Positions 1 to 42,613 of a DNA stretch of 64,000 bases are shown piece after piece. The notes beneath the pieces were generated by a model that did no database searches, was not told where the DNA came from, and worked only from the letters and a program-made list of their open reading frames with translations. The position numbers were made by a program, and so were the translations under genes. The number at the start of each line of letters is the position of its first letter. Positions within the stretch are counted from its first letter, which is position 1. Source of the stretch: Methanoregula boonei 6A8 (GTDB lineage: Archaea; Halobacteriota; Methanomicrobia; Methanomicrobiales; Methanospirillaceae); NCBI RefSeq assembly GCF_000017625.1, contig NC_009712.1, positions 1,302,001 to 1,366,000 of the forward strand, written 5' to 3'.

Positions 1-460
1 CATTTGCCACACCGTCAGGAAGCGGGTTCTCAATGATGATCACAAGCTTCGGGTCCTCCGAGAGCTGGGGATCGGTGACAAAGATCTGGCGGATCGCAAG
101 CGAATGGTTTGAGAGTACCCGGAGTGCGGCGCTGACAATCCCGCGCTCGTTTGCGTCCTTAGGCATCACCACAATGACCGAGTAGCCAAGGGTTTCAGCC
201 ACCCGGCTCAGGTCGGGTGTGGCCCGCATATTCAGGAAGATCTCGCGCAGGGAAGTCTTTTCAAGGATGCGCCGGGCAGTTGAATCCACAACGCGCCTGT
301 CCGATCCAATGGCCTTTGCAATGGAGGTGGCGGGGATCTCGATACCGTTACAACAGACTCTTCCTTCCTCGTTGATGCCAAACCCGTTTTCGAGAAGAAA
401 CCGGACCACCCGGGACTGGGAGGGCGAGTCGGCAAATTCGCGGATGATATCAGCCCACAT
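1..460 (-). CDS. ACT-domain regulator, 3' end cut by window edge
   Basis: The minus frame is open from an ATG at 458-460 to the left edge, giving 153 visible residues with no stop, so the C-terminus is missing. The N-terminal part (about residues 1-75) looks like a winged-helix region with the stretch ATSIAKAIGSDRRVVDSTAR. Residues 85-153 look like an ACT fold (YSVIVVMPKDANERGIVSA). This two-part layout matches the archaeal family described as predicted regulators of amino acid metabolism with an ACT domain (COG2150), usually about 165 residues, so only a few residues should be lost. The ligand and target genes are unknown. Family assignment is from memory of sequence style. Confidence 0.75.
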   Translation of the reverse strand, partial: MWADIIREFADSPSQSRVVRFLLENGFGINEEGRVCCNGIEIPATSIAKAIGSDRRVVDSTARRILEKTSLREIFLNMRATPDLSRVAETLGYSVIVVMPKDANERGIVSAALRVLSNHSLAIRQIFVTDPQLSEDPKLVIIIENPLPDGVAN

Positions 461-713
461 GTATGCACCGGGTATAACGCAGGAAAATATACATGTATGC
501 ATCGGTGCTGCCATCAGCGTATACGATTGCAGCGATCGCCCGTTTCTTCCGCGGCAAATGCTGGATCGTCGGCCCCTGGTGAGTTTCCTGACAGGGGCAG
601 GACGGAATCGGCCATAACATTCTTTTAGATAGACAACCTTTTTGTTATGGCACAAAAGGCAGGCCAGAGCACATTCTCCGGCGAAAAGCCACAGTGCAGT
701 AATTCTTCATTGG

Positions 714-798
714 GCGAGGGTAGCCAAGCCAGGTCAAAGGCGCTAGGTTGAGGGCCTAGTCTCGTAGGAGTTCTTGGGTTCGAATCCCATCCCTCGCA
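714..798 (+). tRNA. tRNA-Leu (anticodon GAG)
   Basis: The acceptor stem GCGAGGG (714-720) pairs with CCCTCGC (791-797), with discriminator A at 798. The anticodon stem CTAGG/CCTAG encloses the loop TTGAGGG, giving anticodon GAG. A long variable arm and the T-arm GGGTTCGAATCCC confirm a class II leucine tRNA. No CCA is encoded. A T-run starts right after the gene (about 801-805) and probably ends transcription. No intron is seen. Confidence 0.96.
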
Positions 799-1031
799 CT
801 TTTTCTGATTTGATTGAGCGTTATCTGGGTTCTGTCATGTCTGAAGGATTTGGAAAGATATCAACATCGAAAAGAGAGAGTCAGATCCCGCAGCCTTGAA
901 AGAACCATCTTTAAGACTGTTTAAATATTTGGCGGGGTAGTGATTGACGGAGTCTTTTCTTCGGGTCACAACAACGCACCAGAACCGGCAGCTCTTTCCT
1001 GACAAGGATAACCTCTGAAAATTCCAGCCGG

Positions 1032-3334: not shown

Positions 3335-3636
3335 ATGAGAGATAAAATCAGCCTTCCCCCTAGAATGGAGACGTCATACGGTTCGAAGTTGCGTTGCTCT
3401 TGTATTAAAGGGACTTAATGAAAATGATATTGTCGTGATACATTATCCTTGACTATATAAACATCCCGACAACGCAACAGAACCACGGTGTATTTCTCTA
3501 AAAATATGCAACTCCGCTGCCAAAGATTCCTGAGAAAAGCCCGGTCCGCGATCCATCAATTGCCGAAAATTATCACCCTGACGATGAACAGGGTAAACCC
3601 CACCCCCCCCCAAATCCACCCTGATCACTTACCCCC

Positions 3637-3900
3637 ATCCGGGCCCGATTTGAGCCCGGATGACCCTTTTTTGGATCCATCGGAGCCCGTATCGGGCTCC
3701 GTTTCCCCACTTTCCAAAATAAGCCCAAATTGGCCATATTTTTGCAATCGGACGATTTTAATGACCCTCATAAAGGCCCTTTCCTGCTCGTTTCCGGATC
3801 AAAACGGGTTTTTGTATGATCCCGGAAAAAGGTGCCAAAAAAAGGCCTCTATGGGCCGATTATGGGCATTATATGGGGCTCAATTTGGGCTTATTTTTGA
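3637..3900 (+). repeat. Structured intergenic repeat, copy A
   Basis: About 264 bp that recur in inverted orientation at 23112-23364. A core of more than 50 bp around 3776-3830 is identical. Hairpins visible here: ATCCGGGC (3637-3644) with GCCCGGAT (3654-3661); a perfect 9-bp CGGAGCCCG-TAT-CGGGCTCCG palindrome (3681-3701); and TTCCGGATCA (3792-3801) with TGATCCCGGAA (3817-3827). No long ORF is shared between the copies. A mobile MITE-like element or a structured RNA family both fit. Confidence 0.9.
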
Positions 3901-4100
3901 GAATGAGGGCCATTAAGGGGTTTAAAATTTGAAGATGGCGATCGGGCGGTTTTACGGGCTTATTTTCTCCCGGTTTTTGGAATAAATATCCTAATGCGTA
4001 TTCGTAACCCGGCATATGCCTGCCCGGCAAAACCGCAATCACACCATTTTTCCTCTGAGTGCAAGATTGCCCCGGCACCATTTTTTCGCGGGAAGACAAA

Positions 4101-22857: not shown

Positions 22858-23111
22858 CAATTTGTCCGGTAGATTATCGTGATCGTAAGAAAAGCGTACA
22901 AAATCCAAATGATGCACGATCAAAAAGGATCATCGCAACGCGAAAATGTCTGCCGTGATCGCGTCGAAACGGGGATCAGGGCAGATTCGGGATCATGGTT
23001 GGCGGGTGCCCCGGCCCACCTGCTTTTGGCATAACCGGCCTAAAAAAATACGCCCGTAAAACGCTCCGTTTCGATTCGCGTGGAGAAAACCCATTTTAAT
23101 CACTCTTTTCA

Positions 23112-23364
23112 TCAAAATAAGCCCAAATTGAGCCCCATATAATGCTCATAATCGGCCTATAACGGCCTTTTTTCGGCATCTTTTTCCGGGATCATACAAA
23201 AACCCGTTTTGATCCGGAAACGAGCAGGAAAGGGCCTTTTCGTGAACCTTTTATTTCGTCCGTTTGACAAAATACGGCCATTTTGGGCTTGTTTTAAAAA
23301 GAAGCCCGATACGGGCTTTTTGGGATCTAAAAAAGGGTCATCCGGGCTTAATTTGGGCCCGGAT
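23112..23364 (-). repeat. Structured intergenic repeat, copy B (inverted)
   Basis: About 253 bp, reverse complement of the copy at 3637-3900. The central block is identical, and flanks diverge by substitutions and small indels. The palindrome here is AAGCCCG-ATA-CGGGCTT on the + strand (23302-23318). Relative to copy A, two stem positions changed on both sides (G-C to A-T and C-G to A-T), which keeps pairing. It ends about 217 nt before the second ECF operon's 3' end. Confidence 0.9.
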
Positions 23365-23580
23365 TAGTTCAGCTTTCTACCTCCTTTCTGAGGGGAGGTC
23401 TTGTTTGGAGGAAATCCGGTTCAAACCTTGGCATTGGGTATTCGGGCACTGTTTTCGTTCCGGTACCGGAAAATTTTTTGATGCGTGGTTGCAGGTGTAA
23501 AATGGAAATCTCCGGATCGCTGGAAGAGTGCCGGCAAAAATATCCGGAGCATGAAAAGTCGATGAAAAATTTGGAGAAAA

Positions 23581-35025: not shown

Positions 35026-35375
35026 GTGAGTGGGAGGAGTAAGCCTCCTTCTGTTCGTGCGGCATTCAGCTCTGCACCATACCCGGGCGGATACCGGACG
35101 ATCCATTGCCCTGTTCTGGCTTGCACCCGCAGGGATTCGCCGTTTCATCGTATCCTGTTCCGTTAAAGCGCTCAACGGGTTACTCACGCGGCAACAACCG
35201 CGTTTCTCGCCCCGGGGGGCTCGGCCGCATCATAACTGGGAACAGGCCGTGTCGTTTCTGTGCCATTGCCGTGACTCTCGCCACCCGTACTTGCATACGG
35301 CTGCGTGTCCGGAAGGTGGGGGGACTTTCCTCAGCGATCATAAAAGACCACCGTCAGCCGCTCTCTCCCTCTCAC
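35026..35375 (-). ncRNA. rnpB: RNase P RNA
   Basis: Read on the minus strand, GAGGAAAGTCCCCCCACC (within about 35317-35337) is the conserved region I of RNase P RNA. The P1 helix is visible: 5' GTGAG-A-GGGAG pairs with 3' CTCCC-A-CTCAC, placing the ends near 35375 and 35026 and giving a length of about 350 nt. The ACAGAA motif and further archaeal-type helices follow. A TTTATTAA box (35406-35399 on the minus strand) sits 25-30 nt upstream. It is the catalytic RNA that trims tRNA 5' ends. Open frames crossing it are not coding. Confidence 0.92.
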
Positions 35376-42115: not shown

Positions 42116-42447
42116 GGATCTCCGGGAAATTCTGGGCTAATATCTTCTTTTTTAGAAAGGTCGCAGGTAACAACCTTTTATTTCCCAAAAAATAACCGGC
42201 TCAGTGTAAAAGATTTTTCAAAAAAAAAGCCGGTCGCGTTCCGGCAATTTCCAAAAAAGATCGACCACCCTGCCCCCCTCAATCAAAAAAAACTGATCTC
42301 CCCCTCTCCCCACAGTTTCCAGTTGCGAAAAAAATTGACCGGTCCGATCAATTCCGGAATCGATCGGGGTGACCGTTTATTTCCATTGTAAAAACATGTC
42401 CTTCCACGGGATGTTCAGAAGTAACGTGGAGATCGGTCCGATCGTTT

Positions 42448-42574
42448 TCAAAATCGATCGATCCGGCCAATTCCGGAGATGGTCGGGCCGATCGATCGTA
42501 CAGCAGAATCAAAGATGGCCCCTCCCCCCCACTTCACGGTCCGCAAAAAAATCGGTCGGATCGATCGATTTTGA
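42448..42574. repeat. Inverted repeat pair, 21-nt arms
   Basis: The arm at 42448-42468 contains AAAATCGATCGATCC; the arm at 42554-42574 is its reverse complement with one mismatch, 85 nt apart. The motif ATCGATCGG also recurs near 33350. The arms could form a stem in RNA or cruciform in DNA, or be paired protein sites. Confidence 0.7.
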
Positions 42575-42613
42575 GATGGGTCGCTCCGCCATCCCGTGAG
42601 ATTACTCCGCCCA

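Follow-up and report, generated by a model that had tools for sequence, protein, structure and literature searches.

Enterobacterial ERIC sequences are about 127 bp long, and the SM1-SM4 elements of Sulfolobus have ends that link them to known IS elements. ERIC sequences are intergenic and palindromic, number in the tens in E. coli K-12 and have been classed in a recent review among the MITEs, a class that in Sulfolobus is represented by SM1-SM4 at 25-44 copies per genome (PMC10969869). REPs are 20-40 bp long (PMC3733652), and REPINs have been linked to RAYT (Y1) transposases (PMC3116915). A family of dispersed repeats that invites comparison with all three groups was found in the methanogen Methanoregula boonei 6A8.

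The window analyzed here is a stretch of 64,000 nt from the complete, single-contig genome of this archaeon (2,542,943 bp). It holds two related sequences, copies A and B, in opposite orientation and about 19 kb apart, which align end to end (A recovers B at E = 1.6e-75), are identical over 60 nt when one is reverse-complemented and have no ORF in common (Table 1). Direct comparison and alignment thus bear out the initial annotation, which had described an inverted, hairpin-rich and non-coding pair without a shared ORF and with an identical core of more than 50 bp. Its placement of the element was also correct, but the copies extend beyond the approximately 260 bp that it had assigned to them, and the pair, although real, accounts for only 2 of the 32 full-length copies that the genome contains. 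These copies, recovered with a sequence-only profile (R1) and here called family I, are approximately 345-350 bp long and intergenic, with 19 on the plus and 13 on the minus strand; a fragment of the same family lies near 2.44 Mb. Weaker R1 matches, of which there are approximately 18, represent a related second family that has the 3' module "...TTTCGGCAAACGGGGCGATTATAGGGCTTATTTTCCACGCGAACCGAAACGGAGCGTTTTACGGGC" in common with family I.

Copies A and B belong to a family of approximately 350-bp dispersed intergenic repeats that is specific to the Methanoregulaceae. Searches of the genome and its relatives returned many copies, 32 of them here and others more widely in the Methanoregulaceae; the first refuting condition of the initial annotation, that there are only two, is false. 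Within the genus Methanoregula, 38 of 39 genomes contain a match at E <= 0.01; full-length family-I copies are numerous in three relatives (G003, G009 and G032, from which 11, 22 and 4 were fetched) and single in other genomes. Among 110 genomes sampled evenly from the order, matches at E <= 1e-5 were confined to five genera of the Methanoregulaceae, the other families giving none at that threshold. No covariance model in Rfam matched the element, and neither Rfam nor the searched literature yielded a name for it. A viral origin was considered and rejected, the core motif being absent from IMG/VR. That A and B resemble each other by chance, or as fragments of a duplicated gene, is virtually precluded by the E value of their alignment, by the copy number and by the finding that no copy overlaps a called gene. 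The suggestion of a dispersed, unnamed repeat is supported by the number, both orientations and intergenic location of the copies, by the second family and by the spread across the Methanoregulaceae. As a separate observation, family II has the core GGCCCTTGGTGGCCAATAGCTGACATCGAAATCGGGCGAATTTCGGCAAACGGGGCG and was located at G000:C1:1002664-1002867 (-), 970623-970817 (+), 1671121-1671318 (-), 1623314-1623507 (+) and approximately 14 further positions in M. boonei (G000; loci numbered L148-L163), and weak matches that resemble it were seen in nearly all Methanoregula genomes searched.

The resemblance to ERIC is claimed as one of kind: both are intergenic, palindromic and present in tens of copies, whereas ERIC is well conserved and the methanogen family, found in another domain of life, is approximately 350 bp long, 60-75% identical and composed of exchangeable modules. 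Like SM1-SM4, the Methanoregulaceae repeat is archaeal, dispersed and non-autonomous, but no partner was found for it in the partial-copy clusters inspected, and neither a consistent terminal repeat nor a target duplication was found. With REP, BIME and REPIN sequences it has in common an intergenic mosaic of palindromic and variable modules; it differs from them in the short length of REPs and in that no Y1_Tnp protein was found in the M. boonei genome.

Table 1. Coordinates of the repeat copies and of their conserved parts within the 64,000-nt window.
Feature	Position	Strand	Basis
Copy A, family I, model positions about 5-344	3619..3967	+	nhmmer profile 332 bits; Infernal 261.9 bits, E 3.3e-78
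Copy B, family I, model positions about 11-345	23043..23376	-	327 bits; Infernal 257.4 bits, E 8.1e-77
5' extension of copy A, common to L005, L012 and L014	3497..3618	+	blastn, 74-82% identity over the 5' flank
Hairpin 1, ATCCGGGCCC...GAGCCCGGAT; 5' arm is a conserved block	3637..3661	+	folds
Hairpin 2, the central palindrome CGGAGCCCG-TAT-CGGGCTCCG	3681..3701	+	folds
Long stem, 5' arm, AAAATAAGCCCAAATT, a conserved block	3716..3731	+	folds, pair counts
Long stem, 3' arm, AATTTGGGCTTATTTT	3882..3897	+	folds, pair counts
60-nt A/B-identical core in A	3772..3831	+	direct comparison; module swaps here at orthologous sites
60-nt identical core in B	23180..23239	-	direct comparison
Most conserved block of the family, GGGCATTATATGGGGCTCAATTTGGGC(G/T)TATTTT	3864..3897	+	column conservation, 71 copies
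3' block (A)ATCGGGCGGTTTTACGGGCTTATTTT, present in family II too	3940..3966	+	column conservation, family comparison

One reading offered by the initial annotation was that base pairing in these copies is under selection. At two positions in the stem of the central palindrome, A has C-G and G-C while B has A-T, a covariation that is real at these positions but atypical of the family, as pair counts in 48 copies revealed; at a third position of that stem, B has an unpaired A.C. A structured non-coding RNA family, present at many loci and with pairing held by selection, would account for these matched changes, for short blocks of high conservation and for the strong self-complementarity of single copies on both strands relative to shuffles (z of -5.1 for the plus strand and -7.5 for the minus strand). 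Against it stands the lack of a consensus structure: RNAalifold gave -19 kcal/mol for the 31 own-genome copies and -5 for 27 copies from relatives, compared with about -130 for a single copy, and base-pair probabilities averaged over the copies of either strand reached a mean support of 0.23-0.35, with no common fold. In the three obvious helices, 80.1% of cells were paired across 48 copies versus 80.3% after shuffling, and the covariation score was 0.062 versus 0.064. Hairpin 1 has 88% of its cells paired in these copies and not one pair with a two-sided change; in hairpin 2 the inner stem is conserved and the outer stem is broken in approximately half of the copies. The first of the two cited positions was CG in 17 of the 48 copies, AU in 4, UG in 1 and unpaired in 25, with both sides changed in 4, and the second was GC in 21, AU in 2 and unpaired in 24, with both sides changed in 2; summed over both, pairing was absent 49 times and a two-sided change was seen 6 times, the 3' arm (CTCCG) being constant while the 5' arm varies. 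Substitutions disrupt pairing no less often than they preserve it, which is the second of the two refuting conditions named in the initial annotation.

When the 31 own-genome copies were taken alone, pairing slightly exceeded that of shuffles (81.6% versus 80.7%; 2/500), as did the 11 double-change cells (6/500) and the covariation score (7/500), but this excess was gone at 48 copies. Because the trend vanishes across all copies, matched stem changes between two palindromic copies cannot be taken as evidence for a conserved RNA, and the present case may serve as a worked warning. In helices restricted to Watson-Crick pairs in 58 copies, single mismatches were 53 G.T and 67 A.C, a balance that favors neither strand as an RNA; the copies also have no preferred orientation relative to genes and no counterpart in Rfam. 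With RNAalifold, averaged pair probabilities, pair counts and wobble asymmetry all failing to support it, the structured RNA was rejected as a candidate and is considered very unlikely. The arm-to-arm similarity, including the double changes between A and B, is better explained by palindromic ancestry together with exchange between copies. Template switching during replication, which can yield compensatory changes in one event (PMC8794818), is possibly an added source of this similarity at hairpins; loop inversions, its most distinctive footprint, did not exceed the control in the copies.

Exchange between copies is suggested by their sequences and sites. Pair identity averages 0.70 within the genome and 0.60 between M. 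boonei and G003 or G009, and with no within-genome pair above 0.89 there are no near-identical copies, a level of divergence from which the copies appear to be old. They are mosaic by the PHI test (p <= 0.002). The approximately 120-nt 5' extension of copy A is one among several alternative 5' modules (window positions 3497-3987 match L005 at 79%), and the 60-nt core of A lies inside the region most frequently exchanged among copies. Five sites are common to G003 and G009 as judged from 1.5-kb flanks, which are 77-90% identical, and the elements at these sites are identical at 0.88, 0.64, 0.58, 0.78 and 0.66, compared with 0.65 for all G003-G009 pairs. At three of the five, the nearest copy sits at another site and the bodies are no closer than those of random copies. 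In the L071/L082 pair the 5' halves match and the 3' half is of a different module type, while L084 retains the first approximately 22 nt of the ancestral element followed by a second, new 5' end, which argues for replacement of the body. Because G003 and G009 are metagenome-assembled genomes, some of these body swaps could be artefacts of assembly or strain mixing. At the L084 site in M. boonei the flanks are 12.5 kb apart, each adjoining a family-II or partial match, which is consistent with the repeats acting as points of rearrangement.

Mobility was assessed through the ends and insertion sites of the copies. The proposal of a MITE-like element holds insofar as the repeat is short, lacks a common ORF and has many dispersed copies, and is weakened in that target duplications, consistent terminal repeats and recent copies were not found. 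Target-site duplications, which the initial annotation had put forward as a mark of a mobile element, were not detected: across 49 copies, no choice of boundaries produced an excess of flanking direct repeats. The ends vary among copies, most carrying AATCCGGGCCC at one terminus and TTTTACGGGCGTATTTT at the opposite one, and inverted ends of the form AATCCGGGCCC...GGGCCCGGATT are found in a few copies of relatives (L064, L068, L070 and L079). These inverted ends, together with the length, the imperfect palindromes and the tens of geneless intergenic copies, would suit a MITE that is or was recently active and is mobilized in trans by the transposase of an IS. The variable ends, the missing target duplications and the absence of young copies make this rather unlikely. 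So do the searches for a transposase: for Y1 (PF01797), the one family covered, the genome gave no match although the controls, Methanosarcina acetivorans among them, did, and the partial-copy clusters that were inspected have no transposase ORF flanked by repeat ends. The clusters at 1002-1010 kb and 1669-1676 kb contained ordinary genes, and an autonomous partner in them was rejected; a coding-like stretch 3' of L005 was likewise dropped, its protein matches being marginal. A search for empty sites at two G003 loci encountered occupied orthologous sites or broken synteny, and no clean empty site.

The placement of the copies raises the alternative of a chromosomal element that functions as DNA, for example as binding sites for chromosome-organizing or repair proteins, with blocks under selection. 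By gene calls from a simple codon-score caller of our own, the neighboring genes converge at 21 copies, run in one direction at 27 (split 14 to 13 by the orientation of the element, hence no bias) and diverge at 3, copy A among them; the sign test for convergent versus divergent placement gives about 3e-4, with copies at orthologous sites not fully independent. All 32 genome copies are found in the two thirds of the chromosome from 93 kb to 1.80 Mb; the remaining arc of 838 kb is empty (P = 2e-4 by simulation) and includes a cdc6 gene at 0.4 kb. Conservation is block-like, the variance over 12 columns being 0.0128 where shuffles reached at most 0.0055, and the conserved blocks (hairpin arms, GGGCATTATATGGGGCTCAATTTGGGC and TTTTACGGGCGTATTTT) are separated by exchangeable modules. 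These features, the near avoidance of divergent promoter regions and the retention of sites across species would all suit such an element, and the block-like conservation and the empty arc are compatible with a candidate role at the DNA level. Its probability is nevertheless low, since copy number of the strong family varies from one to more than 30 among species of the genus, neither a known motif nor a binding protein was identified, the empty arc extends to one side of cdc6 and is not symmetric about it, and insertions would avoid promoters as well.

The family is probably an old, MITE- or ERIC-like dispersed intergenic repeat, likely once mobile, that is now largely fixed and has been reshuffled by ectopic exchange. 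It would first have spread as a non-autonomous mobile element, next have become nearly or wholly immobile and been inherited at fixed sites, and within each genome ectopic exchange, by gene conversion or recombination, would keep the copies alike. Since neither a transposase nor a consistent terminal repeat nor a target duplication was found, we infer former mobility from copy number and scatter only. Two points sit uneasily with this account: block-like conservation is not expected of a decayed repeat without constraint on some blocks, and ordinary homologous recombination should be inefficient at 65-75% identity. A variant that we regard as unlikely is a cassette-like replacement among scattered sites, in which sites are fixed over the lifetime of a species, bodies are repeatedly replaced by other family members and the conserved blocks are the exchange points, possibly tied to a chromosomal function that would also explain the empty arc. 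The family offers a marker of genome change in a methanogen family that includes peatland species and, if body swapping holds in isolates, a natural system for the study of ectopic exchange between archaeal repeats of approximately 70% identity.

Several other repeats were noted beside the family-I copies. Short blocks, CCTCGCTTTGCTCGGAGTCGCTCGGGCGCCTCGTCGGGCCCTCGCTGGGCAAGTGC and GGATCCCGGTAAGTGCGTAGCGCAAAACCCGACGAGGCGTTTTGCGCGTC, are 80-98% identical among copies and species (L016 at -310..-150 relative to the element start, L025, L011, L030, L062 and L072) and are mutually complementary (CGCCTCGTCGGG/CCCGACGAGGCG); they resemble a conserved structured element more closely than the A/B repeat itself does. 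Degenerate tandem arrays of an approximately 32-bp unit (GATCGGTTGCTGAGGATTTTCAAAAAAGTTCGGGTCACGAGCTGAGGATTCCGGAAAA) occupy intergenic positions in several species (relative positions +450.. at L023, +440..800 at L072, -310..-130 at L064 and +410..570 at L010). Inverted copies of the tandem-array repeat bound a segment of approximately 750 bp that carries the element and is inverted relative to the flanking genes between L070 (G009) and L079 (G003), M. boonei (L023) having the orientation of L070. A GC-rich intergenic repeat, GCCGCGGGGGCGCCCCGTCGGGGGCGGCGGC..GGGGGTGTGGGGGCGACAGCCCCCACGATATCCCC, at L011 and L014 of M. boonei and L062 of G009, is 97% identical in the two species, far more than their genes are. 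The window also contains an archaeal RNase P RNA gene (RF00373) at 35028-35373 on the minus strand; the family-I element that lies just beyond the end of this gene in G009 (L199) is absent here. A further dispersed intergenic sequence, at window positions 42185-42588, is 73% identical to the flanks of L026 and L027 and contains a GATC-rich inverted repeat of 39 nt (CGATCGATCCG).
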